From: a virus
Strand: one strand, 5' to 3'
DNA length: 42,538 nt
IMG/VR virus record: IMGVR_UViG_3300043464_001525
Coordinates: 1-42,538 of that record
The notes under the pieces are model-generated. The model was given only the letters and a program-made list of their open reading frames with translations, ran no database searches and was not told where the DNA came from. Every line of letters begins with the position of its first letter. Positions within the stretch are counted from its first letter, which is position 1. Positions 6,419 to 41,260 of the stretch are shown here, piece after piece. A program made the position numbers and the translations under genes.

Positions 6419-8455
6419 ATGGCATTAAAACCTATCGATAAAAGTTGGGCAACAAATAAAAAAGATATTAAATATCTTAATAGAGATTTTGCATCCCTAA
6501 GACAAGCATTAATTGAATTTACTAAAACATATTATAGTAACACTTATAATGATTTTAGTGAAGCATCACCTGGTATGATGTTCATTGAACAAGCAGCATA
6601 TGTTGGAGATATTCTTTCATATTATACCGATGCACAATTAAAAGAATCATTTATTAACTTAGCAAGTAATAAAAATAACATTTATCAATTAGCACAAAAC
6701 TTAGGATATAAACCAAAGATTTCTACTCCTGCGAGTGTTACGTTAACATTGTATCAAACATTACCATCTAAATATGTGTCAAGTAATGGTACGAGTGTTA
6801 ACTATGAACCTGATTTTGATTATGCATTAAAAATAAATGAGGGGATGTTGGTGGGTTCTAATTCTAATCAAAATGTAGAATTTTTAACAACAGATTTTGT
6901 AGATTTTGCAGATTCTAATAATAGAGAAGTAAGTGTATTTACAGTTGATGCTAGTAACAATCCTATAACTTATTTGATTACAAAAAAAGTATCAGCAATA
7001 AGTGCAACTAGATATACACAAACATTTGATGTTGGTGAATTCAAACCAAATCCAACTTTTAGACTTACATCTACTAATTTTATTAAGATAGAAAGTGTAA
7101 AAGATAGTGATGATACTACATATTATGAAGTTCCATATTTGGCACAAGAAATGGTATATATCAAATCACCAAACGAAGCTTACAACGAACCACTATTAGC
7201 AACCGCTAATTCACCAAAATATATTTTAAAGTTACAACAAACAAATAAAAGATTCACAACTCGTTTAGTAGATGAGCAAACTATTGAATTAAGATTTGGT
7301 AGTGGAAATGAATCTACACCGGATGAATCATTAATTCCAAATACAAAGAATGTAGGATTGGGATTAAACAATTCAATTAATAGAATGGGTGAATCATTTG
7401 ACCCTTCTAACTTTTTGAAAACAAATACATATGGTATTGCACCAGCACAAACAACATTAACAGTTAATTATTTAGCAGGTGGTGGTATTCAATCAAATGT
7501 ACCACAGGGTGATTTAACTAAAATAAAAGCAGTTTCATTTAACGATGATATATTAGCATTTACTGAAATTAATTTTCCGGTATATAATGAAGCTAGACGT
7601 TCTTTAGTTGTAGAAAATATTGAACCTGCAACTGGTGGAAAAGGGTTTGAAACATTGGAGGAGATTAGAGAAAATGCAATAGCTAACTTTGGTGCTCAAA
7701 ATAGAGCGGTAACTAAAAAAGATTATGAAGTTAGAGCATTAGCAATGGATACTATGTTTGGTGGAATTGCAAAAGTATATGTTGAACAAGATGGTTCAAT
7801 TGATACAAGTGCAGCACAACAAGTTCTAAGAAATCCATCAGTTAAAAAAGATTTTACTAATTTAGTTAAATCATTAAAGACTTCAACTGATGATGAAATT
7901 ACTTTGGCATTAGATACTTTCTTAAAAACAAAACAAACCTTTGCAGTAGAAAGTAATCCATTTGCAATTAATATGTATTTGTTAGGGTATGATTCTAATA
8001 ATAAATTAACAACGTTAAATGCAACAGTAAAACAAAACTTAAAAACATACTTAGAAGAATATAGATTATTGACAGATGCTATTAATTTAATTGATGGTTA
8101 TATTGTTAATATTGGTGTAAACTTTGATATAACTGTTTTTGCTAATTATAACAAACGAGAAGTTGTATTGAAGTGTGTACAAGTAGTAACTAACTATTTT
8201 GACATTAATAAATGGAAAATGAATCAATCAATTAATTTAAGTGAATTAGAATTAGAATTGGCAAATGTAGATGGTGTTTCATCAGTTCCTAAAGTAGAAA
8301 TAGTAAATTTAGCAGATTCAACTGGTTTAACGTATTCACAATATTCGTACAACATTATAGAAGCAACTAGAAATAAGATTGTTTATCCATCATTAGACCC
8401 TTCTATATTTGAAATTAAATATCCAAACAAAGATATTAAGGGGAGAGCATTATAA
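6419..8455 (+). CDS. gp6: Baseplate wedge protein gp6-like
   Basis: A 678-aa protein, close to T4 gp6 (660 aa). The N terminus (KDIKYLNRDFASLRQALIEF then DFSEASPGMMFIEQAAYVGD) is the conserved start of the gp6/gpJ (baseplate_J/TssF) family, with the aromatic D-x-L-SYYTDAQL helix. The central region carries the J-like motif ...GKGFETLEEIRENAIANFGAQNRAVTKKDYE at about 410-440, written here with a typical RAVTKKDYE block. gp6 dimers form the iris ring of the baseplate. The stop codon overlaps the next ATG. Its position directly after gp25 supports the call. Confidence 0.92.
   Translation: MALKPIDKSWATNKKDIKYLNRDFASLRQALIEFTKTYYSNTYNDFSEASPGMMFIEQAAYVGDILSYYTDAQLKESFINLASNKNNIYQLAQNLGYKPKISTPASVTLTLYQTLPSKYVSSNGTSVNYEPDFDYALKINEGMLVGSNSNQNVEFLTTDFVDFADSNNREVSVFTVDASNNPITYLITKKVSAISATRYTQTFDVGEFKPNPTFRLTSTNFIKIESVKDSDDTTYYEVPYLAQEMVYIKSPNEAYNEPLLATANSPKYILKLQQTNKRFTTRLVDEQTIELRFGSGNESTPDESLIPNTKNVGLGLNNSINRMGESFDPSNFLKTNTYGIAPAQTTLTVNYLAGGGIQSNVPQGDLTKIKAVSFNDDILAFTEINFPVYNEARRSLVVENIEPATGGKGFETLEEIRENAIANFGAQNRAVTKKDYEVRALAMDTMFGGIAKVYVEQDGSIDTSAAQQVLRNPSVKKDFTNLVKSLKTSTDDEITLALDTFLKTKQTFAVESNPFAINMYLLGYDSNNKLTTLNATVKQNLKTYLEEYRLLTDAINLIDGYIVNIGVNFDITVFANYNKREVVLKCVQVVTNYFDINKWKMNQSINLSELELELANVDGVSSVPKVEIVNLADSTGLTYSQYSYNIIEATRNKIVYPSLDPSIFEIKYPNKDIKGRAL
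8438..8445 (+). promoter_or_regulatory. Shine-Dalgarno-like AAGGGGAG before the 8455 gene
   Basis: A purine-rich AAGGGGAG lies inside the end of the gp6 gene, 9 nt before ATG 8455. It supports that start in an otherwise Shine-Dalgarno-poor genome. Confidence 0.6.
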
Positions 8456-25845: not shown

Positions 25846-28800
25846 ATGGCAGTTGAAATAAAATTAGCTCCGGATGAAAAATTAGAATTAGTAAGAGCAC
25901 AAATTACAGACACATCATTAAATTCAGATTATTTTAATGTAACAGAACTATCCGATACTTTTTCGGGTGGTAAGAATGCATTTTTAATTGCAGGTTCAGA
26001 ATTATTAGAACCAAATACCGAAGTAAAAGTTCAAATTAGAGATAGTGCTGGTAAAGTATTATATTGTGAATTTTCGGATGGCTCTCCGGATGAATATTAC
26101 GAAGGTATTTCTAAAGTAGTTGCAGTATACGTTTATCCAACTGAAACTTCATTTGGACCAGCAACTATTACTTTAGTAGGACAAATCAGAGATACATTAG
26201 ATTTAGTAAAATGGCAAAGAACAATAAACATTGATCCATCTTTACCAAATACAACTAGAGTAAGATTTTATAAAAGACCAATTGTTTCAATTGTAGAAGA
26301 ATTATCACCTATATATGCGTTTGATGCTACTGGTTCAAAAGTAGCGTCATTAGTTACACAATCATTTGCAAATATTAAAGTTTCTCAATTAGATACATTT
26401 GCAGGAGATGTAAAACGAGTAAAAGTTTATAGAACATCCGAAGGTGATATTTCGGATTATGATTTAATACAAGATATATTAGTTGAATCAAAAGAGTTAT
26501 TAACTACTACAACACTTAGTGGTAGTGTAGTTGGACAAGCGGGATTATTCACATCCGAAACTTTACAAAAATTATGGATACCAACGGGTGTAACCACACA
26601 ACTTACTTCTAGTAAAATTGATAATGGTGTTAAATTAAGTGGTAGTGGATATTTTACATATTCATCTTCTTTGGATATAAAAAGTGCAAATACATATGAA
26701 TTAGGAATAGACGCATTTTATTCTTCATCCACCTCAAGTAATATAGGTATTTATTTAAGTCAAGTTACAACTTCAACCGATGGTGTGACACCTTTAATTA
26801 TATCAAGTAGTATTGGTACATTAATAGGAACTCAACCAACAAAAAATTTATCAGATACCACACTTCCTTTTAAAATAAATAAAGATTACCCATCCGCAAG
26901 TTTATACCTTTCACAATCGCAGGGTGAATGGCATGTTGGAAATATTAGTTTAAAATTATCAGAAGATAGTGCATTTTCTCCATCGGAAATTTCATTTGTT
27001 ACATCAATGCCAACTGTATTAGGTAATGAAACATATAATTTCAAATTTGAGTTTTATGATGTAAACAATAATTATGTTCCGGTAGCAGTTACACAATCTG
27101 CACTATTTACGGGCGGCAATAATAATATCGGTGGAACTTTAATTTTGATTAGTGGTTCTACATCGGCATCAAACGCATCTATATTAGCATTATCACAATC
27201 GGTTAGTGGAACTATTGGAAACGTAACAGCAAGTGTATCTCAATCATTTTTTACAGCATCAGCATTTTCGGCATCATTACAAAGTTCATCTTTATTTATA
27301 AGTTCTAGTTTAAGTTCATCGATATCCTCAAGTAAAGGAGCAGCAATATCATCATCGTTTGGTAATATACAAACATTAGCAAATGGTAATTTTAGTGGTT
27401 CATTTATTAGTGACACAACAATATTTGCACCGGTTATTGGTGGTAATAATGGTTATATTTCGGACTTATTCAAAGTAGGAACAGCACCTTCAATTTATTT
27501 AGATGCAAGACAAAATCCAAGAAAAATATTTATAGGGGGTGTTGCTGATGTAGGTTCGTATAATAGTGCAACTACAACTGTGTATATGGATAGTACCGGT
27601 AAATTTTCATTAGGAGATCAATTATTATGGAATGGTAGTGCTTTAACTATAAATGGAACTATTAATGTAACAGGTGGAACTGCAGCTACTGATGCAAATG
27701 CATTATTATATGCACAAAGAGCAGCACTATCAGCTTCAATTTCTGCATCGGCCGCACAATCAAATGCAATTTCATCTGCTAGTGGTAGTGCGTATACTAT
27801 GGCAATTACATCTGCAAATACAGCATTTACTAATGCAAGTGCTAGTGCATTTACACAAGCAAATACAGCATATAATAATGCAATTTCAGTAGCATCATTA
27901 GATGCAACAACCAAATCCAATACAGCATTTGATAACGCAGCAGCACAAGTTAAATTATTAGCAGATGGTGGTTATACGGGAACATTTATTAGTAGTAAAG
28001 AAATTTTTTCACCTGTGGTTGGTGGTACGGTTGGTTATTTTAGTAATCAATTTAGAGTTGGTGATGCGGGAATAGTATTAGATGGTGTAAATAAAAGAAT
28101 TTATATAGGTAGTGGTACATATGGAAATTCAAATACTGGATTTTATGTAGATAATAGTGGAAATTTTTCATTAGGTAATAAACTTACATTTAATGGTAAT
28201 GCACTAAATGTAGTAGGAGCAATAACTGCAGAATCAGGGTTTATCGGAACCGCAGCTGCAGGTTGGACAATTGCATCAAATAAAATTTTTAATACAAATG
28301 TTGATATAGATAATGCAAATAATAGAATTGATTTCAAAAGTGGTGGTATAGTTAAAACAAGAATTAAAAGTGGTAATGCAGATATTGGTTCATTTACAAC
28401 AACACCAATTACAATTGCATCTGGAACTACCTCTCAAAATACACAAAATGGTAGCAGTATTAGTCCAGGGCCATTGGTTGTACAAAATTCAACTGGTGGT
28501 AATACAGCAGAAGCTACTTTTACAACACCACTTGCAGCTAATGGTCTCCCATTTTCAATTACCGTACCATACCCAGCATTATCTACGGTTGGATTTTCAA
28601 CAGTCACAAATTTAGGAACCGGAACGAGTTGGGATTGGAGTTATTACGCTAGAATAGACTATGTAGTACGATTAAATAATTCATCAGGCACAGCAATTGC
28701 AAGTGGTAATAAAATTTTATCACAGGGTTCAACTGGTACTACCATTGGTTCGACGGGTACTGTTACACATCCAGGATTTGCAGCGGGTACTATGATTATT

Positions 28801-29445
28801 CCAAATGTTGCAACAGCAACTACGGGTCAAGTATATTGGATAGGTGTAGCTATTGGAAGTAATGTACAAACAAGAATAAACCCGTCAGGAAATACACCAA
28901 TAGGTAATAGTGGCCAGGCCACTGCTGGGACTACTGGATGGTTAGATACCTCAGGGAATGCGGGTTTATTAGCAGTTGCAAATAGAGCAGAATATGCAAC
29001 GAATGGTGCACAGATTGGTTCAGCTGAAGGTACATATGTTGCATTTGGTGATGCAGCTGGTAGTGGTTATGTTGGCTCTTTTAATGGAAATGTTCAGATA
29101 ATAGGAGTGCTCACTGCAGGTGCAATTTCTGCATCTGATATAAGAGCAAAAACAAATATACAACCTATATCAAATGGAATTGAAACTATAAAAAAATTAA
29201 ATCCGGTTAAATTTGATTGGTTACAGCATATAACAGGAAATAATGAATTTGAAAAAGGATATGGGTTTATAGCAGATGATATACAACAAATAATGCCCGA
29301 ATTGATATATGAAAAAAAGGGTTACAAATATGATGATTTTAAACATTTAGATTATACATCATTTCATGCTATTGCAATTAAAGCAATACAAGAATTAATA
29401 GAAAAAGTAGAAAAATTAGAAGCACAAATAAGTGGTTCAATATAA
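25846..29445 (+). CDS. Tail fibre with C-terminal S74 intramolecular chaperone
   Basis: A 1199-aa protein. Residues 1-130 are beta-rich and may be the virion attachment region. Residues 130-480 are mixed beta domains. Residues 440-510 and 615-703 are Ser/Ala-rich segments likely to form a trimeric coiled coil. A module of about 95-100 residues is duplicated at 511-611 and 705-798. The C-terminal 105 residues (from SDIRAKTNIQPI, with KLNPVKFDW, YGFIADDIQQIMPEL and HAIAIKAIQELI) are a peptidase S74/endosialidase chaperone. It trimerises the fibre and is usually released by self-cleavage at its N-terminal serine (ISAS/DIRAK here). Such fibres bind host surface glycans. The glycan cassette begins 9 nt downstream. 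Confidence 0.88.
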   Translation: MAVEIKLAPDEKLELVRAQITDTSLNSDYFNVTELSDTFSGGKNAFLIAGSELLEPNTEVKVQIRDSAGKVLYCEFSDGSPDEYYEGISKVVAVYVYPTETSFGPATITLVGQIRDTLDLVKWQRTINIDPSLPNTTRVRFYKRPIVSIVEELSPIYAFDATGSKVASLVTQSFANIKVSQLDTFAGDVKRVKVYRTSEGDISDYDLIQDILVESKELLTTTTLSGSVVGQAGLFTSETLQKLWIPTGVTTQLTSSKIDNGVKLSGSGYFTYSSSLDIKSANTYELGIDAFYSSSTSSNIGIYLSQVTTSTDGVTPLIISSSIGTLIGTQPTKNLSDTTLPFKINKDYPSASLYLSQSQGEWHVGNISLKLSEDSAFSPSEISFVTSMPTVLGNETYNFKFEFYDVNNNYVPVAVTQSALFTGGNNNIGGTLILISGSTSASNASILALSQSVSGTIGNVTASVSQSFFTASAFSASLQSSSLFISSSLSSSISSSKGAAISSSFGNIQTLANGNFSGSFISDTTIFAPVIGGNNGYISDLFKVGTAPSIYLDARQNPRKIFIGGVADVGSYNSATTTVYMDSTGKFSLGDQLLWNGSALTINGTINVTGGTAATDANALLYAQRAALSASISASAAQSNAISSASGSAYTMAITSANTAFTNASASAFTQANTAYNNAISVASLDATTKSNTAFDNAAAQVKLLADGGYTGTFISSKEIFSPVVGGTVGYFSNQFRVGDAGIVLDGVNKRIYIGSGTYGNSNTGFYVDNSGNFSLGNKLTFNGNALNVVGAITAESGFIGTAAAGWTIASNKIFNTNVDIDNANNRIDFKSGGIVKTRIKSGNADIGSFTTTPITIASGTTSQNTQNGSSISPGPLVVQNSTGGNTAEATFTTPLAANGLPFSITVPYPALSTVGFSTVTNLGTGTSWDWSYYARIDYVVRLNNSSGTAIASGNKILSQGSTGTTIGSTGTVTHPGFAAGTMIIPNVATATTGQVYWIGVAIGSNVQTRINPSGNTPIGNSGQATAGTTGWLDTSGNAGLLAVANRAEYATNGAQIGSAEGTYVAFGDAAGSGYVGSFNGNVQIIGVLTAGAISASDIRAKTNIQPISNGIETIKKLNPVKFDWLQHITGNNEFEKGYGFIADDIQQIMPELIYEKKGYKYDDFKHLDYTSFHAIAIKAIQELIEKVEKLEAQISGSI
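27376..27678 (+). repeat. Fibre module copy A
   Basis: Residues 511-611 of the tail fibre. Landmarks FSGSFISDTTIFAPVIGG, FKVGTAPSIYLDA, and STGKFSLGDQLLWNGSALTI match copy B at 27958-28239. Confidence 0.8.
27958..28239 (+). repeat. Fibre module copy B
   Basis: Residues 705-798 of the tail fibre. Landmarks YTGTFISSKEIFSPVVGG, FRVGDAGIVLDG, and NSGNFSLGNKLTFNGNALNV match copy A. The two copies are separated by an Ala/Ser-rich probable coiled coil. Confidence 0.8.
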
Positions 29446-29454
29446 AAATAAGTT

Positions 29455-30474
29455 ATGTTTGATGTATTAGTTACAACAGGAGCAGGTAATGTTCCTATGG
29501 GTGGCAGTGATATTTGGGTAAACAATTTTTTAGAAAATGTATATCTTCATTTAGATTATCCAATCGTATTATTAATTGATGGTAGAAAACCAATAGGATT
29601 TAATCCTGATTCTATCCCTTGTCAATTTTGTTTTTCAAAAGAACATCCATTATTAGTAGAACCTCTTTTAAGAAATGCAAGAAAGATACATTTTTTACAC
29701 AACAATTATTATCGTAGAGATGCATTGTGGGAATACAAACATAAATTCCATACAATCTTTTGCCACGCTTACATTAAAGAAATTATAAACACTAATGTAG
29801 ATTTAGGATTAGATAGAGTTTATTTACCTACTACAATGGATTTACAATGGGAACAAGATGTAATGAACCAATGTAAACAAATAGTTTGGATTGGGTGTAA
29901 CGATGGAATGGTACAAAAAGATTTTAAAGAAAAAACAATTCAGATACCAAATTATTATGAGTTTGATAATAATATAGAATATAGATGGAATACCGATAAG
30001 ATAGGATATGCAGCCCGTAGTGAAACAAGAAAGTGTTTTCATTTTTTAGATAAACATAGGGGATATGCAATTACCGATTGGATGGGATATGAAAATTTAA
30101 AAGAAGGATTAAACTTAGATTTAAAAAAAATAAGATTCTACCCATATAATTTGGAAAACCATAAAAATTTCTTTAACTTAGACTTTACGATATTCCACGG
30201 ATGTTATGTAAATGAACCTTTTGGATATTCTATATTTAACGCAGTTGATTACGGTAAATTACCAATCTTAAACAAATATTGGTTACCTAAAATAGATTAC
30301 AAATATAGAGCAAATACAAAAGAAGAATTCAATAAAATGTACGAAATAATGTGTAACGATTTTGAAGTTGAAAGACAATATAATTTTAATAAATTGAAAC
30401 AAGCTTTACAAAAATATAATAATAAAGCAAATTGGATTCACAGGATAAAACTATTACTTAATGATAACAAATAA
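29455..30474 (+). CDS. GT-B-like glycosyltransferase (probable)
   Basis: A 339-aa protein that opens the glycan cassette. The N terminus (VLVTTGAGNVPMGGSDIWVN) looks like a Gly-rich Rossmann start. The C-terminal half carries FHGCYVNEPFGYSIFNAVDY followed by GKLPILNKYW, which resembles the E/PFG...A...G.P signature where GT-B enzymes (GT1/GT4) bind the nucleotide sugar. A PYNLENHKNFFN segment precedes it. There are no transmembrane helices. It would transfer a sugar from a nucleotide donor; acceptor and donor are not visible. It overlaps the next gene by 14 nt, indicating co-expression. The call is moderate because the conserved motifs are partial. Confidence 0.58.
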   Translation: MFDVLVTTGAGNVPMGGSDIWVNNFLENVYLHLDYPIVLLIDGRKPIGFNPDSIPCQFCFSKEHPLLVEPLLRNARKIHFLHNNYYRRDALWEYKHKFHTIFCHAYIKEIINTNVDLGLDRVYLPTTMDLQWEQDVMNQCKQIVWIGCNDGMVQKDFKEKTIQIPNYYEFDNNIEYRWNTDKIGYAARSETRKCFHFLDKHRGYAITDWMGYENLKEGLNLDLKKIRFYPYNLENHKNFFNLDFTIFHGCYVNEPFGYSIFNAVDYGKLPILNKYWLPKIDYKYRANTKEEFNKMYEIMCNDFEVERQYNFNKLKQALQKYNNKANWIHRIKLLLNDNK

Positions 30475-31216
30475 AAATTATATAAAAGAATTTATTTCTA
30501 ATAATCAAGAAATAGATGATTATGGTGATCAAACTTTAATCAATGTTCCATATCGTTGGTCGCATGGTGCAACCGATGACCATTTAGGAGATGGGCTGAT
30601 TATATATTCATTAATTCAATATATGAGAGCAAAGGTGTGTGTATGTTTGGGTAGTGGTGGAGGATTTATACCAAGAATAATGACGCAGGCTAGAATTGAT
30701 TTACACTCACAAAATATATTTGAAGGTGATGATAATAAAAATTGGGGTGATATTGGTACGACGTATATTGTAGATGCGATGAATGGTATTGGTGGTAATG
30801 TAAGTTGGTTTAATGAAGAAAGTTTTTTTAGAAGATTATTTTCACCAAGAATTATAGCAGATACAACTGCAAATGCGTTTCACAATCACTTTGTATTAAA
30901 CGATATTAAGATTGATTATCTGCATATTGATGCGGGACATAGTTACGAAAATGTAAAAGAAGATTTTGAATTATATTCTCAGTTAATGAGCGAGAATGGT
31001 ATTATATCAATTCACGATACCGACCCTAATTATGCAGATAAATACATAGTGACAAATGAGGTTAAAGATAGGGGTGATTTTGATGATTGGAAAGGACCTA
31101 TACAATTAGCAAAAGAAATAGATACAGATAAGTGGCAAGTATTTGATTTATTTAACTTTGGTATTATAAAAAATAAACCAGCATCAACAGGATTAACGTT
31201 AGTAAGAAAAAAATAA
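30461..31216 (+). CDS. SAM-dependent methyltransferase, Methyltransferase_24-like
   Basis: A 251-aa protein with a class I methyltransferase fold. Motif I-like VCVCLGSGGGFIPRIM lies at about 59-74. The characteristic IDYLHIDAGHSYENVKEDFE block (about 150-170) is followed by LMSENGIISIHDTDP, as in the cephalosporin-hydroxylase/Methyltransferase_24 group that methylates sugars and small molecules. It overlaps the upstream glycosyltransferase by 14 nt, and its stop overlaps the next ATG by one base. Sugar O-methylation is the likely role by context, but the substrate is not visible in the sequence. Confidence 0.8.
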   Translation: MITNKNYIKEFISNNQEIDDYGDQTLINVPYRWSHGATDDHLGDGLIIYSLIQYMRAKVCVCLGSGGGFIPRIMTQARIDLHSQNIFEGDDNKNWGDIGTTYIVDAMNGIGGNVSWFNEESFFRRLFSPRIIADTTANAFHNHFVLNDIKIDYLHIDAGHSYENVKEDFELYSQLMSENGIISIHDTDPNYADKYIVTNEVKDRGDFDDWKGPIQLAKEIDTDKWQVFDLFNFGIIKNKPASTGLTLVRKK

Positions 31217-32055
31217 TGAAAAGATTAGTTACAGTTACAGGCAGTAGAACAAATACATTATGGCATTTTTTTAAATACTATGAAACATTAGTAGATGAAA
31301 TATATGTGGTTGTATATGAATGGGAAGGAATGAGTACATATGATGAAGTAGAAAAAATATCAAAAGATTTTCCAAATGTACAAATAATTAAACGTTCTAA
31401 AAAAGAAAAATTTAATTGGGAACATGTAACTTATTTATATAATCAAACTAAAATGTTACATCCTAACGATTGGTGGGTTGTAGCAGATGATGACGAGTTT
31501 CATGTATATTCAAAAGAGTTAGATACAATTATAAATGAATGTAATCAAAATGGTTGGGAGTTAGTAAGAGGTGGATTTATAGATAGAATTGGTTTAGATG
31601 GTGAATTTTCTGAACTAAAAGAAGATATAGATATATTTGAACAATTTCCATTAGCAGGTTTTTTTCGTTATCCTTTAAGTGGTGCATGTCCAAATAAAGT
31701 ATGTATAATGAAAGGATATATAGAATTAACATCGGGTCAACATTACGCTAAAATAAATGGTGAAACAACTTGGAGATGGCAAGGTTGGAATCATCCTTTA
31801 ATTGCACCAACAAATGAATATAGTGTGGAAGTTAATCATTTTAAGTGGGATTCAACCTGTATAGATAGAATAAAATCAGTAGCAGATATTAATCAAACAT
31901 ATTCTTATTCAAAAGAATATCAACAAATGTACGATGCTATAAAACTAAATAATTTTAAAATTGATATTTATGATGAGAGGTTTATGATTGAAAATTGTGG
32001 TTACTATGGGTATTCACAATGGGATAAACTTTTTAAAATAATTCAGTCAATTTAA
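31216..32055 (+). CDS. GT-A-type glycosyltransferase (GT2/GT92-like)
   Basis: A 279-aa protein. The N terminus (KRLVTVTGSRTNTLWHFFKY) begins a Rossmann-like GT-A fold, and WWVVADDDEFHVY at about 92-104 supplies an Asp-rich DxD metal site. Later landmarks are FFRYPLSGACPNKVCIM, GWNHPL and VEVNHFKWD, the last being a typical acceptor/lid histidine region of GT92-like enzymes. No transmembrane segment is seen. It would add a sugar from a nucleotide-sugar donor using a divalent metal. It couples by 1-nt overlap to the methyltransferase and is followed by a 35-nt gap containing TATAAATA. Confidence 0.72.
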   Translation: MKRLVTVTGSRTNTLWHFFKYYETLVDEIYVVVYEWEGMSTYDEVEKISKDFPNVQIIKRSKKEKFNWEHVTYLYNQTKMLHPNDWWVVADDDEFHVYSKELDTIINECNQNGWELVRGGFIDRIGLDGEFSELKEDIDIFEQFPLAGFFRYPLSGACPNKVCIMKGYIELTSGQHYAKINGETTWRWQGWNHPLIAPTNEYSVEVNHFKWDSTCIDRIKSVADINQTYSYSKEYQQMYDAIKLNNFKIDIYDERFMIENCGYYGYSQWDKLFKIIQSI

Positions 32056-32090: not shown

Positions 32091-33572
32091 ATGAGTAATC
32101 ATAAATTAGCAATTGTTGTACCATATAGAGATAGGAGAGAACATCTCGATATTTTCTTGCCACATATGGTTGCGTTTTTAAGTAATAAAAATATTGATTA
32201 TAAATTATTTGTAATAGAACAATCAGATGATAAACCATTTAACTATGGTAAAGTTTGTAATGTAGCATTTGATTTATTAAAAGATGATTATGATTACTTT
32301 TGTTTTCATGATATTGATATGTTACCTACATCCGATAAAGCAGATTATTCATATCCCAAAACACCAATTCATTTAGCAACAAGAGTACAGGTACATGAAA
32401 ATACATTACCATACTTACAATATTTAGGTGGTGTATTTATAATTCCAAAAGAACAATTTGAAGAAGTTAATGGTTTCTCTAATGAATATTATGGTTGGGG
32501 ATATTATGATTTGGATTTATTATATAGAATGGATAAAGCAGGATTGAAATTAGATTCCGAATATATTTTTCCTAAAATTGATGGTGAATATGAATTAGAT
32601 AGATTAAAAATAACGGATTCAATTAAAAAAGAAAAAGTAACTTATTTGAAATTTGATGGTGAAACCCAAATGGAAATAATACCAAATAAATTTCTTAAAC
32701 CAATAACTACTGATTCATTTACAATTTCAGCTTGGGTAAACTTTGATGATTTTGTTAAAGAAGAACAATATATAATTTCATTTCCTGGATATAATAGTGG
32801 TATTTCAATTCAACCTGATAATACACTTAGATTTAATTTTTGGGGTAAAGAATCACAATACTATTTTAATTATAGAAAACTAAAACCAAATCAATGGCAT
32901 CATATTGTTGCTAATATTGATTATGATTCTAATAAACTTAAATTAGTAATTGATACGTTTGAAGAAAATAAAAAATTCGATACACTTACCGATTTTGAAT
33001 TACCATTGTGGGATTACACCAAAGATAAAATCTATATAGGATGTGGTTCACATGGTAAAAATATGTTTAGAGGTAAATTAGCTAATTTGTATATTTTTGA
33101 TTATTTATTAAGTGAAAACGAAATTAAGAATTTATATTTAAATGGATTGGTACATAATAGAACATTACAAACACAATTTGAACCAATATTAAAATATCAG
33201 TTCAATAATTTTTATAAGAATTTTGTAATGGATGGCAGTAAAAATCATAATCACGCAACTTTATATAATACACATGGTAGTAATTATTCGGAATATACAA
33301 AGAAAGATGAGATTATAAAAACAACTAAAATAAAATTACCAAAAAGAATTGAAGCAACATTTCAATCATTACCACATGATAATGATACAAATATTGTAGA
33401 AAGATATAAGGGATTTGATCCTGATACTATTGAAAATGGTATTATATTTTTTAATGATATTCTTACTGAAAAGTTTTCAACAAAAAAAATTGGATTAAAT
33501 AATTTAAAATATAAATTTATTGAAAATGAAAAATTTGATGAAAAAACAAATTGGATTAAAATAATACTTTAA
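32091..33572 (+). CDS. Beta-1,4-galactosyltransferase-like (GT7) protein with inserted LamG domain, copy 1
   Basis: A 493-aa protein. Residues 1-150 match the beta4GalT family: VVPYRDRREHL (9-19), NYGKVCNVAF, the DxD metal motif in FHDIDMLP (74-76), and LGGVFIIPKEQFEEVNGF leading to NEYYGWGYYDLDLLYR. Residues about 183-390 are a LamG domain (YLKFDGETQMEI, FTISAWVNFDD, QWHHIVANID, IYIGCGSHGK). Residues about 405-493 return to the galactosyltransferase: LPHDND with His429 at the metal-ligand position, then GLNNLKYKFIENEKF and WIKIIL, as in the family's DGLN...Y end. The Glu of GWGxEDDD is Tyr and one Asp is Leu, so activity or specificity may differ from copies 2 and 3. There is no signal anchor. 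Confidence 0.85.
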   Translation: MSNHKLAIVVPYRDRREHLDIFLPHMVAFLSNKNIDYKLFVIEQSDDKPFNYGKVCNVAFDLLKDDYDYFCFHDIDMLPTSDKADYSYPKTPIHLATRVQVHENTLPYLQYLGGVFIIPKEQFEEVNGFSNEYYGWGYYDLDLLYRMDKAGLKLDSEYIFPKIDGEYELDRLKITDSIKKEKVTYLKFDGETQMEIIPNKFLKPITTDSFTISAWVNFDDFVKEEQYIISFPGYNSGISIQPDNTLRFNFWGKESQYYFNYRKLKPNQWHHIVANIDYDSNKLKLVIDTFEENKKFDTLTDFELPLWDYTKDKIYIGCGSHGKNMFRGKLANLYIFDYLLSENEIKNLYLNGLVHNRTLQTQFEPILKYQFNNFYKNFVMDGSKNHNHATLYNTHGSNYSEYTKKDEIIKTTKIKLPKRIEATFQSLPHDNDTNIVERYKGFDPDTIENGIIFFNDILTEKFSTKKIGLNNLKYKFIENEKFDEKTNWIKIIL

Positions 33573-33582
33573 AATAAAAAAT

Positions 33583-33840
33583 ATGGCAGACAAAAAAGAA
33601 TTATCATTAGAAGAAAGACAAGTTATTGCTTTAGAAAAACAAGCAAAAGCAACTGAAAAATTAACTTACGCAGTAGAAGATATTGCTGACTTCTTTCATA
33701 GTGCTGATATAGGAAAATTCACAGAAAAATTAGAATGGTATTTATATGAATTTCACCAAATCTTAAAAACAAGACAAGTAGGTGGTTCATCATCTCGACC
33801 GGACAAAGATTACGAAAGAGATTTTAATAGTGAAAAATAA
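33583..33840 (+). CDS. Small unrecognised protein between GT7 copies
   Basis: An 85-aa, mostly helical, charged protein (LSLEERQVIALEKQAKATEK, then EDIADFFHSADIGKFTEKLE) with a flexible Ser/Arg-rich end. There is no signal peptide or membrane segment. Its end overlaps the GTG start of GT7 copy 2 by 11 nt, so translation is probably coupled. The acidic/helical character suits a small adaptor or chaperone, but no function can be read from the sequence. Confidence 0.6.
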   Translation: MADKKELSLEERQVIALEKQAKATEKLTYAVEDIADFFHSADIGKFTEKLEWYLYEFHQILKTRQVGGSSSRPDKDYERDFNSEK

Positions 33841-35245
33841 ATTAGCAATCATAGTACCTTATAGGGATAGAGCATCTCATTTAGAAGTGTTTGTTCCTTA
33901 TATGCAAGAGTATTTAAAAGATTACGACTACAAAATCTTTGTCATAGAACAAAGTGATAGTAAACCTTTTAATAGAGGTAAGTTATTGAATGTAGGAGCT
34001 AAGATTGCAATTAAAGAAGGGTTTGATTACTTCGCATTACATGATGTGGATATGTTACCATTGAAAGGTGTAGATTATTCATATCCAGAAACACCGGTTC
34101 ATTTGATATCTAAAGTTGATAAAGAAGTTCCATTCATTGATTATTTTGGTGGAGTTACGTTATTTAATGTACATGATTATAAATTGATTAATGGTTATTC
34201 AAATGAGTATTGGGGTTGGGGATTTGAAGATGATGATTTACTTTATAGATGTACTCAAAGAAACATACCATTAGATAAAATTTCAGTTGGTATACCGGAT
34301 AAAAACTATTTAATAAATTATTTTAAGTTTGATGGTAAAACATCTTACATAAAAATTCCATATCAAAATTTACAATCAATATTTAATAATGATTTTACAT
34401 TATCTATTAAGTTAAAACCGGAAGATAGTAAAACATCATTAAAGGAAGATTTTGATGAATATTATGCAGTATCTATACCAGGCAGAAACACAGGTATATC
34501 ATACACATCATTTAAAAGATATAAAGGTGAAGTTTGGACAAAGGATGATATTTCAACATCAATTCAAAGTGACATTATTGGTGAAGTATGGTCACATTTA
34601 GTAATTACAAAAGCAGATAATGTATTTTGTTTTTATATGAATGGTGAATTGATTGATACTAAAAAATTAAGTGAGCAATTATATGAATACGATAATGATT
34701 ATTTTTACATTGGTGTAGGTAATCCAACATTAGATAGTGAGCAATTTTATTTTAAAGGATTAGTTGCTGAGTTTGCTATTTGGAATATTGCATTAGATAA
34801 AAATAATATAAACGAAATATACGAAACATCATTATATAAATCAATTATAAATGATTATAAAAAATATAATAAATCTAAGTTTTTAAAATGTTATTACGAT
34901 TTTAAAAATTTCAAAGGAGATATTATACAAGATTTAAGTGGTAATAGAAACAATGGTATTATTTACAATTGTGAAGATAATGTGATGCTAGATAAATTTG
35001 AGACAGATATTGTAGTTCCAATTAGAAGAGAAGGAAAATTTAAAACATTAAAACATAGTTCAAATTCTACAATTGGAAATAAATGGATTCATTCAGAAAC
35101 AAGAACAAACCAAGAAAGGTTTTATAATGAAATGAAAGGTAATATTGTAGATTTATCTATTGATGGATTAAACACTTGTATTTTTAAAGAAGTAGAAAGA
35201 ACAACTATAACAAATAACGCAATTAAAATTTCAGTTAATTTATGA
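33830..35245 (+). CDS. Beta-1,4-galactosyltransferase-like (GT7) protein with inserted LamG domain, copy 2
   Basis: I choose GTG 33830 (471 aa), which gives MKNKLAIIVPYRDR like the paralogs. An earlier in-frame start would add 16 unlike residues inside the upstream gene. This copy is the most canonical. It has FNRGKLLNVGA (47-57, as in animal beta4GalT), the metal motif HDVDMLP (72-74), DYFGGVTLFNVHDYKLINGY, then EYWGWGFEDDDLLYR (129-136 core intact). A LamG domain fills about 163-387 (YFKFDGKTSYIKIP, VWSHLVITKAD, FYIGVGNP). The galactosyltransferase then resumes: GKFKTLKHSSN with His409, NQERFYNEMKG, SIDGLNTCIFKEVERT and IKISVNL. beta4GalT enzymes transfer galactose from UDP-Gal with Mn2+; donor and acceptor here are inferred only. 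Confidence 0.9.
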   Translation: MKNKLAIIVPYRDRASHLEVFVPYMQEYLKDYDYKIFVIEQSDSKPFNRGKLLNVGAKIAIKEGFDYFALHDVDMLPLKGVDYSYPETPVHLISKVDKEVPFIDYFGGVTLFNVHDYKLINGYSNEYWGWGFEDDDLLYRCTQRNIPLDKISVGIPDKNYLINYFKFDGKTSYIKIPYQNLQSIFNNDFTLSIKLKPEDSKTSLKEDFDEYYAVSIPGRNTGISYTSFKRYKGEVWTKDDISTSIQSDIIGEVWSHLVITKADNVFCFYMNGELIDTKKLSEQLYEYDNDYFYIGVGNPTLDSEQFYFKGLVAEFAIWNIALDKNNINEIYETSLYKSIINDYKKYNKSKFLKCYYDFKNFKGDIIQDLSGNRNNGIIYNCEDNVMLDKFETDIVVPIRREGKFKTLKHSSNSTIGNKWIHSETRTNQERFYNEMKGNIVDLSIDGLNTCIFKEVERTTITNNAIKISVNL

Positions 35246-36687
35246 AATTAGGTGTTTGTGTACCATATAGAAATAGAGAAGCTCATTTAAAAGAGTTTTC
35301 ACCGAGAGTTCATAAATTTTTAGAAGAACAAGGTATTGAACATAAAATATATTTTGCGCATCAATGTGATGATAAGTTATTTAATAGAGGTAAAATGAAA
35401 AATATTGCCGCAAAACACGCTTTTGATGATGGGTGTGATTATATTGTATGGCACGATATAGATATGGTACCAGAAGATGATTCTTGTGATTATAGTTACA
35501 ATCCTGAGAACCCAAAACATTTAGCAGTAAGAATATCTCAAACTGATTATAACCTTAAATATGAGGAGTATTTTGGTGGTGCGGTACTATTCACAAAAGA
35601 ACAAGTTGAAGCAACAAATGGTTACTCAAATGATTATTGGGATTGGGGAATGGAAGATGATGATTTATTTTGGAGATGTGTATTGACAGGTAATGCAGAG
35701 CAACATTATTTATCAGAAAAATTTAAAAATCAAAAGTATGGATATTTTAATGGTAAAGATTCATATGTAAAAATAGAACCATCTCGTTCAATTAGAAATG
35801 TTTGTTCACGTTCACATACGGTTTCAATTTTAGTAAGAGCACATCAACAAGAGGAGAAAGTTCCTATTTATTTAATTGGTGATGAAGATAGAAGATTTTG
35901 TGAGTATCCAATATTTAGAAGACCAGGACATGATTGGGGATTGAGTTATAACAATAGTAGAGCATTTACTACAATGATGTGGAATAATCAAAGAGAGTTT
36001 TTGTATCTATGGGCTAAACGATACGAAGAACAATGGACTTGGGTTACATTGACAGTTGATGATGATAGCAAAGAAATTTCACTTTATATCAATGGAAAGA
36101 AAAGTGATGCAAGATTTGGAACAGGATTATCTTCACCATTAAAATATGAAGGATTTTTAAAAAGATATGGGATTGATCCTTACTATATTGGAACTACTAC
36201 ATCAGTTGGTATCAATGAAGTTAATAGATGGTTTAAAGGTGATATTGCAAAACTTATGATATGGGATAGGTGTTTAGATGAAAATGAAATATTAGAGTTT
36301 CCTGATGAAATGGTTGCACACTATGATTTTAATAATGTAGAAGGTAATATATTAACAGATTTAACGGATAATCAAAATCATGGTGAAATATATAATGTAG
36401 AAATAAAAGAGGAAGATATTTTGAAAGTTCATAATACTATCTTACCTTTTCGTAGAGATGGTAAGTTTGAATGTTTACCACACCAAACGGAAGGATTAAT
36501 TAGTGTAGGTGGAGTTGATAAATGGGCAAAGGGTGAAACTACTGCAAGAAATGAAAGAAGATACATTTTAGAAATGCAGCAAGGTAAATATAATTGGAAA
36601 AATGATGGTATGAATAGTTTAGAATATGAACTAATATCAATCGAAGATATAGAAAATAATTCAGTAATGATAAATTGTAAAGCATAA
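35242..36687 (+). CDS. Beta-1,4-galactosyltransferase-like (GT7) protein with inserted LamG domain, copy 3
   Basis: A 481-aa protein; its ATG overlaps the previous TGA (ATGA). The N-terminal part has VCVPYRNREAHL, FNRGKMKNIAA (47-57), the DxD motif in WHDIDMVP (72-74) and EYFGGAVLFTKEQVEATNGY. It continues with NDYWDWGMEDDDLFWR (134-141), where the first Gly of GWG is Asp but EDDD is intact. A LamG domain occupies about 166-392 (GYFNGKDSYVKIEP, WTWVTLTVDD, KEISLYINGKK). The GT7 end follows: GKFECLPHQTE with His414, TARNERRYILEMQQ and NDGMNSLEYELISIED. The position of the insertion is the same as in copies 1 and 2. The radical SAM gene overlaps its last base. Confidence 0.88.
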   Translation: MKLGVCVPYRNREAHLKEFSPRVHKFLEEQGIEHKIYFAHQCDDKLFNRGKMKNIAAKHAFDDGCDYIVWHDIDMVPEDDSCDYSYNPENPKHLAVRISQTDYNLKYEEYFGGAVLFTKEQVEATNGYSNDYWDWGMEDDDLFWRCVLTGNAEQHYLSEKFKNQKYGYFNGKDSYVKIEPSRSIRNVCSRSHTVSILVRAHQQEEKVPIYLIGDEDRRFCEYPIFRRPGHDWGLSYNNSRAFTTMMWNNQREFLYLWAKRYEEQWTWVTLTVDDDSKEISLYINGKKSDARFGTGLSSPLKYEGFLKRYGIDPYYIGTTTSVGINEVNRWFKGDIAKLMIWDRCLDENEILEFPDEMVAHYDFNNVEGNILTDLTDNQNHGEIYNVEIKEEDILKVHNTILPFRRDGKFECLPHQTEGLISVGGVDKWAKGETTARNERRYILEMQQGKYNWKNDGMNSLEYELISIEDIENNSVMINCKA

Positions 36688-38078
36688 TGGCAAGTTACGA
36701 AAAATTTGAATCAGTAAGAGAGCAATTAAATGCAGTAGGAGTGGGATTTTGTTTAGCTAAATGGATGCAAGTAACAATGCATTTACATATTGGTCACAAC
36801 CATAGTTGTCACCACCCGATGACACATCAAACTTCAATAACGGAAATTGAAAGAGACCCTTCGGCACTTCATAATACTCGTTTCAAAAAGGAAAAGAGAA
36901 AGGAAATGTTAGAAGGTAAAAAACCGGCAGAATGTGATTATTGTTGGGGTGTAGAAGATAGTTCAAATCAATTTAGTGATAGAACCTTTAAATCATCGGA
37001 ACCATGGGCATATCCACATTTAGAAAAAATAAAAGAATCACATTGGAGAGAAAACATTAATCCATCGTATGTAGAGGTTTCATTTAGTAATGCATGTAAC
37101 TTTGCTTGTTCATATTGTGCACCACCATTCTCAACAAAATGGATGGAAGAAATTGAACAACATGGTGGTTATCCAACATCCGATTCATTTAATGATTTAA
37201 AACATTTTACAAGTAGTGGTAGAATACCAATTCCACAAAATGAATACAATCCATATGTAGAAGCATTTTGGAAATGGTGGCCAGAGTTATATAAAGATTT
37301 GTATACATTTAGAATTACCGGTGGTGAACCTATGATGCATAAAGATACTATGAAAGTATTAGATTATATTATTGATTCACCAAATCCAAATAAAAATTTA
37401 TGTTTAAGTATTAATTCAAATTTAGGAGTACCGGATTCATTGTATAAAAAATTTAGAGAGAAATTTAAAATTATATCCGATAGAGAATTGGTAAAAGAAT
37501 TAATAATTTATACAAGTTGTGATGGATATGGTGCACAGGCTGAGTATGTTAGAAATGGTTTAGTATATAATCAATTGATGGATAGAATAGATGATTTATG
37601 CCAGTATATTCCGAGATTAACAATAGATATAATGAGTACATATAACGCATTATCAGTACCATCATATCGTAAATTAATTGATGATGTTTATTCATTAAAA
37701 GCAAAACATACTAACGCCCTAAGATATTATAGACAACCATTGTTATTAGATAGTTCATATTTAAGATATCCTAATCACCAATCTATTAAAATATTAGATA
37801 AAGAATGGTCAGAAGAAATATTTAAACAAGCACAATTGGTTGAGTATTATGAAATGTTAAGAGAAGATATAAATTGTTATGGATTTAGTGATGTTGAAAT
37901 TGTTAAGATTAGACGAATTTATGATTATTTTATATCAATAGATGACGAAGATAGAATGGCACATAGAAAAGATTTTTATAAATTTTTCAGTGAACATGAT
38001 AAACGTAGAGGAACTAATTTTGAGAAAACATTCCCTGAATTAGCTGATTTTTATAACAAATGTAAAGAAATGAAATAA
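36687..38078 (+). CDS. Radical SAM protein with N-terminal twitch/SPASM-like cysteines, copy 1
   Basis: A 463-aa protein. The canonical 4Fe-4S site CNFACSYC is at 137-144 (C137, C141, C144), followed by an RITGGEPMM block (about 209-217), the SAM-binding GGE region. N-terminal to the core are C41 (SCHHPMTH), LHNTRFKKEKRKEMLEGKKP and C83-x2-C86 (ECDYCW). This pattern resembles the half-SPASM (twitch) motif that normally follows the core and probably binds an auxiliary Fe-S cluster. Radical SAM enzymes use a 5'-deoxyadenosyl radical; the reaction here is unknown. The gene sits inside the sugar cassette, overlapping GT7 copy 3 and the LamG gene by one base each. A paralog lies at 39734. Confidence 0.85.
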   Translation: MASYEKFESVREQLNAVGVGFCLAKWMQVTMHLHIGHNHSCHHPMTHQTSITEIERDPSALHNTRFKKEKRKEMLEGKKPAECDYCWGVEDSSNQFSDRTFKSSEPWAYPHLEKIKESHWRENINPSYVEVSFSNACNFACSYCAPPFSTKWMEEIEQHGGYPTSDSFNDLKHFTSSGRIPIPQNEYNPYVEAFWKWWPELYKDLYTFRITGGEPMMHKDTMKVLDYIIDSPNPNKNLCLSINSNLGVPDSLYKKFREKFKIISDRELVKELIIYTSCDGYGAQAEYVRNGLVYNQLMDRIDDLCQYIPRLTIDIMSTYNALSVPSYRKLIDDVYSLKAKHTNALRYYRQPLLLDSSYLRYPNHQSIKILDKEWSEEIFKQAQLVEYYEMLREDINCYGFSDVEIVKIRRIYDYFISIDDEDRMAHRKDFYKFFSEHDKRRGTNFEKTFPELADFYNKCKEMK

Positions 38079-38764
38079 TGGAACAATTTAAAGATACTTT
38101 TTGTGTTAGTTTGTTTAGAGAAAGTAAACATAATACATCATTAAAACCAAATTTATTAGCAAATTTATTTCAACATTCATTCAAAATACAATGTAAATTT
38201 GTAGCAGAAGATAATAAAAAAACACAATGGATTTTTTCTAAGCAGGGTATAGTTAATAGTGGTGTTTATATAAATGGTGATAAATTGTATTGTACATTAT
38301 CAACTAGTCCTAATGACATAGATTTTTCAAAAAACGAAACATTTATGATACATGATTTTGAATATGATAAAGAATATACAATTACATACGAAGTTAATGT
38401 AGAAAATAATACATTTATAACATCAGTAAATGGTGATATTAAAACTAATACACTTATTAATAAAGTAAGTGATTACTCAAATGTACCATTATGGATTGGA
38501 ACATCAAATCCATTTTTAGAAACCAAAAATTATTTTAATGGAATCATATCGGAATTTATAGTTTCAAATAATGATGGTGTAATTACTGATTTAGATTTTA
38601 CAAATGTAAATAGATTTAAAGTGTGGGATAAAAGTGGTAATGGTAATTTTGCATATATTGAAGAATTTATGAATAGACAAATACAAATTAAATTAAATAA
38701 AAGAATTGCTGGAAATTCATTAGAAACATCAGATATTACAAACATACCAAAAACATTAATATAA
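38078..38764 (+). CDS. Stand-alone LamG-like protein
   Basis: A 228-aa protein consisting almost wholly of a concanavalin/LamG-like domain: SFKIQCKFVAED, TYEVNVENNTFITSVNGD, VPLWIGTSNPFLETKNYFNG and IISEFIVSNND are the usual strands. After the domain comes IQIKLNKRIAGNSLETSD, which resembles the linker IKLPKRIEATFQSLPHD that joins LamG to the GT7 end in copy 1. It may therefore derive from a GT7-LamG gene that lost its catalytic halves, or act as a separate glycan-binding partner. There is no signal peptide. It lies between the first radical SAM gene and the epimerase with 1-nt overlaps. Confidence 0.7.
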   Translation: MEQFKDTFCVSLFRESKHNTSLKPNLLANLFQHSFKIQCKFVAEDNKKTQWIFSKQGIVNSGVYINGDKLYCTLSTSPNDIDFSKNETFMIHDFEYDKEYTITYEVNVENNTFITSVNGDIKTNTLINKVSDYSNVPLWIGTSNPFLETKNYFNGIISEFIVSNNDGVITDLDFTNVNRFKVWDKSGNGNFAYIEEFMNRQIQIKLNKRIAGNSLETSDITNIPKTLI

Positions 38765-39733: not shown

Positions 39734-41260
39734 ATGGCAGAATTTGTATATGCAAAAAAAGGTGATGAAACATTTCAAGAATATAGAGATAGAGCAATAA
39801 ACTCACTCTCTAATTCTTTTTGTGGAGCAAAGTGGTATAATGCTACTATATGGTTAAATATGGGACAAACTACTTCGTGTCATCATCCTCCGGCGCATAA
39901 AATTCCATTAGAAGAATTAGAAAAATCATATAAAGCATTACATAATACGAACTATAAAAAAATGGTTCGTAAAGAAATGATGGAAGGTATTAGACCTAAT
40001 GAGTGTGAGTATTGCTGGAAGATTGAAGATTTAGGACCGGATAAAGTAAGTGATAGAGTTTACAAATCAGTAATCTATACCGATGAAGAATTGATAGAAG
40101 CAAAGAATGAATTGGGATATACTAAAGATGTTGATTTAAAAACATTAGAAATTAGTTTTGATGCTAATTGTAACTTTGCTTGTTCATATTGTAACGCATC
40201 ATTCAGTACAACTTGGCAAACGGATATTAAAACAAATGGTGCATACCAAAATTTAGTAACCGATGGTGCTGGAGCATTTCACCACGCTGGGGATGATGCA
40301 ATGATGTATGGTAAAGATAATAAAGATAACCCATATGTTGAAGCATTTTGGAAATGGTGGGAAGGTGAGTTACAACATTCATTAAGAGAGTTAAGAGTGA
40401 CGGGTGGTGAGCCTACAATGAGTAAAGATTTTTGGAAGTTAATGGATTGGTGGGAAAAAAATCCTAATTGTGATGTTCACTTTGCAGTAAATTCTAATTT
40501 AGGTCAAAAGAAAGAATTGGTAGATAGATTAATCAAAGCAACTCACAATTTTAAATCAATTGATATTTACACATCAAATGAAAGTTTTGGTAAGCATGCA
40601 GAATATATTAGAGATGGTTTGAAATGGGAAGTATGGAGAGAGAACGCAGAGAGAATGATTAGAGATGGTAACTTAAGAACATTTAACGTAATGATGACAA
40701 TTAACGCATTATGTATATTTAGTATTACCGACTTTTTAGATGAAATGAATAAACTAAGAGAAAAATATATTAATAAAACATCAGTATTAATGACTCTTAA
40801 TATTTTACGTTTTCCATCATTTCAATCAGTTAGTACATTACCTGAAGAAGTACGTCTAGAAAGAGCAGAACACCTTCAAAATTGGGTTGAAACATTTGTT
40901 AAGAGTAAACCTTCGTATTACAATGACACCGATTTATGGGGGTTAGTAAATCAAATATATAGATTGTGTGAATATCTAAGAGAAGTAACACAAGGACATA
41001 GATTCGCATCTGATTTAAGAAGTAGACAAAGAGATTTCAAATCATTCTATCAACAATATGATATTAGACGTGGTAAGAATTTTGTAGAAACATTTCCTGA
41101 ATTAGAAGATTGGTATGATTCACTTAGAGAAAATAGATTAACAAAAGTAACGGAAATTAAAAAAGTAAGAGGTGATGAAAATAATCCATATATTAAAAAC
41201 TATGTGGTAACTGATGAACTAGAAAACGATATAATAAAACATTTGAATAATGAGCAATAA
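39734..41260 (+). CDS. Radical SAM protein with N-terminal twitch/SPASM-like cysteines, copy 2
   Basis: A 508-aa paralog of the 36687 product. The core site CNFACSYC is at 146-153 (C146, C150, C153) and RVTGGEPTMS supplies the GGE motif. The N-terminal extra set is C49 (SCHHPPAH), LHNTNYKKMVRKEMMEGIRP and C91-x2-C94 (ECEYCW), with the same spacing as copy 1. A conserved NPYVEAFWKWW segment lies between core site and GGE motif in both. Both also end with RRG.NF..TFPEL.D(F/W)Y, confirming descent from one ancestor. The extra 40 C-terminal residues are charged. Function unknown; two diverged copies in one cassette suggest two related reactions or a heterodimer. It overlaps the RmlC-like gene by 11 nt. 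Confidence 0.85.
   Translation: MAEFVYAKKGDETFQEYRDRAINSLSNSFCGAKWYNATIWLNMGQTTSCHHPPAHKIPLEELEKSYKALHNTNYKKMVRKEMMEGIRPNECEYCWKIEDLGPDKVSDRVYKSVIYTDEELIEAKNELGYTKDVDLKTLEISFDANCNFACSYCNASFSTTWQTDIKTNGAYQNLVTDGAGAFHHAGDDAMMYGKDNKDNPYVEAFWKWWEGELQHSLRELRVTGGEPTMSKDFWKLMDWWEKNPNCDVHFAVNSNLGQKKELVDRLIKATHNFKSIDIYTSNESFGKHAEYIRDGLKWEVWRENAERMIRDGNLRTFNVMMTINALCIFSITDFLDEMNKLREKYINKTSVLMTLNILRFPSFQSVSTLPEEVRLERAEHLQNWVETFVKSKPSYYNDTDLWGLVNQIYRLCEYLREVTQGHRFASDLRSRQRDFKSFYQQYDIRRGKNFVETFPELEDWYDSLRENRLTKVTEIKKVRGDENNPYIKNYVVTDELENDIIKHLNNEQ

Follow-up and report, generated by a model that had tools for sequence, protein, structure and literature searches.

The environmental virus record IMGVR_UViG_3300043464_001525 of IMG/VR (positions 1-42,538, here called the window, 42,538 nt in all) encodes on its forward strand three tandem proteins of the beta4-galactosyltransferase (beta4GalT) type in glycosyltransferase family 7 (GT7; inverting, GT-A fold), copies A, B and C, in each of which a complete laminin G-like (LamG) domain almost certainly lies inside the catalytic domain. 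The insert occupies the site of a short loop immediately before the donor-covering lid of animal beta4GalTs. A chimeric assembly, or a frameshift that fused a transferase gene to a LamG gene, was dropped as a scarcely credible explanation of this layout, since independent homologues exist: a single scan of IMG/VR gave 73 loci, which together with the window form a set of 74 (set 1) containing 168 full-length proteins of the same layout across many samples. No LamG-less GT7 was found in these loci, and a scan of homologues with domain models detected both GT7 models in 49 of 49 and the LamG model in 44 of 49.

Pfam matches, all of them above the curated cut-offs, follow the same order in the three copies. 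Glyco_transf_7N is matched with expectation values (E) of 2e-24, 1e-21 and 9e-20 in A, B and C, respectively, and Glyco_transf_7C with 6e-15, 1e-16 and 4e-19; the latter match ends at profile position 61-62 of 78 and is followed by Laminin_G_3 (E 2e-21, 1e-16 and 8e-12). Copy A (32091-33572) comprises a GT7 N-terminal part (residues 1-154, 32091-32552, delimited by Pfam and by the strands and helices of its model) with the motifs VPYRDR, FNYGK and HDID and with YYDLD in the xED region, then the LamG and its flanking stalk (residues 155-416, 32553-33338), and finally a GT7 C-terminal part (residues 417-493 and the stop codon, 33339-33572) that superposes on the C terminus of beta4GalT1 and holds the equivalent of the metal-ligand histidine, H429 (33375-33377). 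Copy B ends at 35245 and begins at 33782 or, probably, at the GTG codon at 33830, which is favoured because GT7 sequence begins there. Its N-terminal part (residues 1-147, 33830-34270, by Pfam and alignment) carries VPYRDR, FNRGK, HDVD (D72 and D74) and EDDD (133-136), the insert spans 34271-35017, and the C-terminal part (residues 397-471 and stop, 35018-35245, by alignment, profile and model) contains GKFKTLKH with the metal ligand H409 (35054-35056), NQERF and DGLN. Copy C (35242-36687) has VPYRNR, FNRGK, HDID and EDDD in residues 1-152 (35242-35697, by Pfam and alignment), the LamG and its flanks in residues 153-401 (35698-36444, with the Laminin_G_3 match at 170-350), and GKFECLPH with H414 (36481-36483), NERR and DGMN in residues 402-481, which with the stop codon were placed by alignment at 36445-36687.

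AlphaFold models of copies A and B (mean pLDDT 93.6 and 93.8, pTM 0.87 and 0.89) provide the structural evidence, while copy C was placed by sequence alone. When superposed by VIA-align on bovine beta4GalT1 (1tvy), copy B aligns over 211 residues at 2.2 Å (Z 27.3) and copy A over 213 residues at 1.7 Å (Z 28.1), in each case from the first residue to the last; because the superposition proceeds from both sides of the insert, the C-terminal 75 or so residues complete the GT-A fold. The intervening parts (161-391 in B and about 181-414 in A) have the jelly-roll fold and match the LamG of PAPP-A and 4dqa with Z 21-22. A profile built from the family likewise yields two matches to human beta4GalT1, at profile positions 7-159 and 434-483, the second covering the C-terminal stretch NPQRF...DGLNSLTY (conditional E 2.9e-5). 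A profile of the C-terminal block by itself retrieves LamG-less bacterial GT7s (best E 1.2e-8, from a small set searched), and in a Simkania genome the matches to the full-length profile, at 5-157 and 414-476, lie 18 bases apart and so mark an empty site. The C-terminal block is GT7. The possibility that the LamG had replaced this block was dropped, as the profile matches and the superposition show that it is retained. An earlier reading of the window from sequence only had proposed that the two flanking segments form one GT-A domain and that the LamG is grafted within it rather than appended; the superpositions on beta4GalT1 bear out the former, and the models taken with the empty-site relatives bear out the latter. 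Neither of the observations that this sequence-only reading had named as contrary to it, a GT-A fold left incomplete or a C-terminal block foreign to GT7, was made.

The interval from the NG motif (NGxSN) to GxFxxLxH measures 281-295 residues in copies A, B and C and in a Fibrobacter copy (L081), as against 32-33 residues in LamG-less phage and bacterial GT7s, one of which (L083) reads RCLHQGIFLK-RRNGRYTCLDH across the empty loop. Assigned from motifs and from the secondary structure of the model, the graft site is a short loop joining the xED helix (alphaF) to the strand leading into the metal-ligand histidine. The insert amounts to about 250 residues when its two-strand stalk is counted; in the model and VIA-align alignment of copy B the LamG (161-391) stands between strands 149-153 and 392-396, which probably act as that stalk. 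By alignment the replaced loop corresponds to approximately residues 328-335 of human B4GalT1, in which the lid has been defined as residues 338-365 with Met340 and His361 as proposed hinges (PMC6198961) or, alternatively, as 345-365 with His347 in bovine numbering (PMC12074965). The graft thus directly precedes the lid and is located at the N-terminal hinge of the latter. Placement in the lid loop itself, as had first been suggested, was ruled out, since the insert comes ahead of the lid, whose equivalent (LxH ... NxxR ... DGLN) is found intact after the LamG. GT-A enzymes are known to expand at three hypervariable regions, HV1, HV2 and HV3 (PMC7185993), and the insert, judged from motifs and from the secondary structure of the model, falls outside all of these (beta3-alphaC, beta6-beta7 and after beta8).

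In the B4GalT1 homodimer, Arg330 pairs with Glu313 in the partner's xED motif at a dimer rim that adjoins acceptor loop1 (PMC6198961). Arg330 lies in the replaced loop, and the graft would therefore be situated on the acceptor side, where it would interfere with a dimer of the B4GalT1 type. A LamG set on two stalk strands at the base of the lid, at a site overlapping this contact (PMC6198961), could serve as a structural prop without a ligand of its own, stiffening the hinge, substituting for the dimer contact or driving some other form of oligomer. Such a role is considered improbable given that many phage and bacterial GT7s function without a LamG, and that the LamG evolves faster than the core, as expected of a binding surface, changing about 1.6 times faster. 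The LamG is nevertheless under purifying selection, with a median ratio of nonsynonymous to synonymous substitution (dN/dS) of 0.14, compared with 0.078 for the core.

Copies B and C belong to GT7 by all features that could be tested. In alignments of the family the DxD motif is kept in 98-100% of B and C proteins and in 88-91% of A; the donor-binding Glu and the base Asp of EDDD are invariant (100%) in B and C; and the second, acceptor-binding Asp of that motif is present in 100% of C and 86% of B, where Asn accounts for another 13%. The metal-ligand histidine, present in all three window copies, is retained in 100% of B, 98% of C and 77% of A. Ninety-seven percent of the family keep the Tyr of YFGG, a residue that sets donor choice in B4GalT1 (PMC6198961), from which UDP-galactose (UDP, uridine diphosphate) would be the favoured donor. 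The column of Met340, a weak metal ligand in B4GalT1, holds Cys in 95% of C, is mixed in B and is mostly Ser in A, hinting, as far as sequence can tell, at a different metal preference. The beta4GalT motifs initially ascribed to all three copies stand for B and C; in copy A the EDDD motif has given way to YYDLD, while FNRGK is confined to B and C, as originally noted. Across clade A the motif retains Glu in 44% of proteins and the base Asp in 91%, with Leu in place of the acceptor-binding Asp in 83%. Copy A is therefore best read as an optional, diverged accessory paralogue with apparently altered or lost catalysis, possibly a pseudo-enzyme or an enzyme of changed specificity. No membrane (hydrophobic) segment was found in A, B or C, so a cytoplasmic site of action and a soluble acceptor are expected for all three.

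The three copies represent three old paralogue groups, of which A is optional and B and C form an almost obligate pair. Two copies are present in 38 loci of set 1 and three in 29; copy A, whose clade numbers 36 proteins, is found in part of the loci, and B and C occur together in almost all that are complete. Identity among the homologues falls to roughly one quarter to one third. A further scan, seeded with LamG-less GT7s, gave 79 loci (set 2, whose contigs partly overlap those of set 1), in 39 of which every GT7 has the insert and in 40 of which every site is empty, with no mixed locus. A tree of the GT7 cores separates proteins with and without the insert by one change, on a branch that is unsupported; a single insertion event is the most economical, though unproven, explanation. 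When trees are built from the inserted LamGs only, A, B and C come out again as groups with the minimum of two changes, although deep branches are weak, and distances between cores correlate with those between LamGs (r 0.66, a value reached in 0 of 2000 permutations). Together these indicate that the LamG was most likely present before A, B and C diverged and has not been exchanged between paralogues since. Swapping of LamG modules among A, B and C was dropped as an alternative because the three groups stay separate in the LamG tree.

Beyond these viral contigs, the layout was identified in GTDB in two metagenome-assembled genomes, L081 (titled Fibrobacter succinogenes) and L082, whose proteins both nest in clade C. 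These were the only two of 168 genomes searched in one bacterial phylum, and the layout is rare in cells of that phylum. In L082 (5842-13407) the GT7-LamG gene is followed by an apparent second glycosyltransferase, along with genes that by eye resemble an ABC (ATP-binding cassette) exporter, a membrane-fusion protein and an outer-membrane channel, a secretion-like setting outside phages. A tblastn search of the isolated phages in INPHARED with copies B and C gave no match. The window contains myovirus-type structural genes, and its baseplate protein (6419-8455) is 38-43% identical to the counterparts in Flavobacterium phage immuto and Microcystis phage Mel-JY01; no annotated glycosyltransferase was present in the examined regions of those two phages.

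The transferase genes belong to a recurring cassette with the order [protein 29455]-methyltransferase-GT2-like-[A]-B-C-radical SAM-(stand-alone LamG)-(epimerase)-radical SAM, where SAM denotes S-adenosylmethionine. Methyltransferase, GT2-like and radical SAM families were detected in 64, 65 and 68 of the 74 loci, respectively. On the forward strand of the window, a class I methyltransferase (30461-31216, Pfam Methyltransf_24) and a GT2-like protein (31216-32055, weak match to Glyco_tranf_2_4) precede copy A, and a twitch-domain radical SAM protein (36687-38078, NF033640, E 5e-97) and a stand-alone LamG-like protein (38078-38764, matched by the inserted-LamG profile with E 3e-12 and having homologues at the same position in other loci) follow copy C. 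In set 2 a GT2-like gene lies within 2.5 kb of the transferase in 17 of the 39 insert loci and in none of the 40 LamG-less ones; as this neighbour accompanies only the insert form, insert and cassette go together. A second twitch-domain radical SAM gene occurs in the window at 39734-41260, and as many as four or five are present in certain loci. The cassette protein at 29455-30474, seen in 37 loci, matches no Pfam family and looks GT-B-like at first sight. Between A and B, an ORF (open reading frame) of about 85 amino acids (33583-33840, forward strand, family F13) overlaps the start of B; its relatives, of about 85-106 amino acids, occur in 11 loci, including one at 5736-6008 in L018. At the opposite end of the window is a NodU/CmcH-type carbamoyltransferase-like gene (659-2374) with a homologue in the cassette locus L043.

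In many cassettes (for example, L025 10286-11125 and L005 10249-11052) the position directly behind the first radical SAM gene is taken by a stand-alone LamG-like protein without a Pfam match, and several families (F7, F11, F17, F18, F21 and F31) fill this slot. That these proteins are recent excisions from the transferases was discounted, as they form their own branch, with the reservation that deep branches are weak. Their presence in the same cassette raises the possibility that the inserted LamG is a protein-docking domain, binding no sugar and tethering the transferase to one of them or to a virion protein such as a LamG-bearing fibre or baseplate protein; the 1732-amino-acid structural protein of the window has a LamG-like stretch at 15266-15514, and PAPP-A, a LamG-bearing protease, is among the top fold matches. 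Against this, the stand-alone LamGs branch separately and are missing from some cassettes, and docking is regarded as somewhat unlikely.

The location of the cassette suggests what it may modify. It begins no more than 10 bases after a tail fibre gene on the same strand (25846-29445, forward; PHROG tail fibre, E 2e-20) that ends in an S74-type C-terminal chaperone segment. An S74 fibre domain was found in 11 of 12 cassette-bearing records and, in the six in which both were mapped, lies 2.8-10.9 kb upstream of the cassette on the same strand. A role for the cassette in virion glycosylation is on balance probable, and there is a precedent for phage enzymes that glycosylate virions, in the capsid and tail proteins of mycobacteriophages (cited in PMC12619734). 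Sugar clusters in jumbo cyanophages have been interpreted as modifying host surface polysaccharide during infection, which would bring about superinfection exclusion (PMC7824862). A comparable function here is decidedly improbable, as no lipid-carrier transferase, flippase or polymerase was recognized among the cassette ORFs of the window and the transferases lack a strong membrane segment. Glycosylation of hypermodified phage DNA seems very improbable. The hydroxymethylases that prepare such DNA have the thymidylate-synthase fold, and a gene of this fold was present in only three of the 12 cassette-bearing records, a mild argument given that the records may be fragments. Phage glycosyltransferases are nevertheless reported to act on such DNA (cited in PMC12619734).

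Taken as a whole, the cassette is tentatively viewed, at slightly less than an even chance, as a pathway for tail-fibre glycan synthesis, with B and C lengthening the chain and the LamG positioning the acceptor. According to this proposal, B and C would take UDP-galactose, or a donor closely related to it, and work in turn on one glycan chain in the host cytoplasm; a GT2-like enzyme would start this glycan, the methyltransferase and radical SAM proteins would also act on it, and the target would be a phage virion protein, most likely a tail fibre. The LamG, presumably fixed in place next to the acceptor mouth and the lid hinge, might bind either the glycan as it grows or the carrier of that glycan, and present the chain end to the active site, conferring acceptor specificity or processivity; the chances for and against such positioning of the acceptor seem evenly divided. 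A bolder version, in which the LamG is a built-in specificity subunit whose glycan binding is coupled mechanically to lid closure, making each enzyme a one-polypeptide counterpart of lactose synthase, and in which B and C by turns read and lengthen one chain so as to build a phage-specific virion glycan, is speculative and doubtful. Several points weigh against the fibre-glycan proposal, among them the unsupported branch in the core tree. The nearest LamG folds include domains without a known lectin role (PAPP-A), no glycan carrier could be identified, and cassettes adjacent to fibre genes could also modify host surface sugars.

No paper pairing GT7 with LamG was found in the literature and no chain with a LamG inside a GT7 in the PDB, and matches among the BFVD viral structure models cover only the LamG or only the transferase part (best TM-score by query 0.41); the suggestion that no described enzyme has this layout has therefore held so far as these sources extend. 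The proteins are GT7 members with a new domain layout, and the family they form is large and previously undescribed. It also marks out a phage glycan cassette that is widespread and apparently unrecorded, and is a source of soluble beta4GalT-like enzymes whose acceptor specificity may be new. The natural empty-site relatives make the effect of the LamG testable by its removal or addition.

Acceptor specificity in GT-A enzymes is thought to come from the three hypervariable regions or from added flanking domains, whereas here a whole domain breaks the common core at a fourth place, the hinge of the donor-closing lid. Animal beta4GalTs (B4GalT1 and B4GalT7) share the fold of the whole transferase part at 31-36% identity over aligned residues and, with B and C, the DxD, EDDD, YFGG, metal histidine, lid motif and DGLN block; the phage proteins differ in being soluble, without a membrane anchor, and in the 250-residue insert with its LamG between alphaF and the lid. 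Close relatives of the core are found in LamG-less GT7s of phages (L103 and L117) and bacteria (L083, Planctomycetota; L084, Simkania), which have the same motifs flanking the graft site but only a few-residue loop at that site, and no GT2-like or methyltransferase partners. GT27 GalNAc-transferases and GT54 MGAT4A also combine a GT-A domain with a carbohydrate-binding domain, one that steers activity or acceptor choice (PMC4432651 and PMC9296478); in those enzymes it lies beside an uninterrupted catalytic domain, being attached through a flexible linker in GalNAc-transferases (PMC5716993), and in POMGNT1 the lectin domain is N-terminal of the catalytic lobes (PMC7014118), whereas here the LamG splits the catalytic domain. 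The Laminin_G_3 or pentraxin-like LamGs of phage proteins, PAPP-A and Bacteroides 4dqa have the same fold in a different host protein and position. Lactose synthase, in which alpha-lactalbumin joins B4GalT1, resembles the present enzymes by analogy only: a second module by the lid changes acceptor use, and what is there a separate protein is in the phage enzymes a built-in domain.

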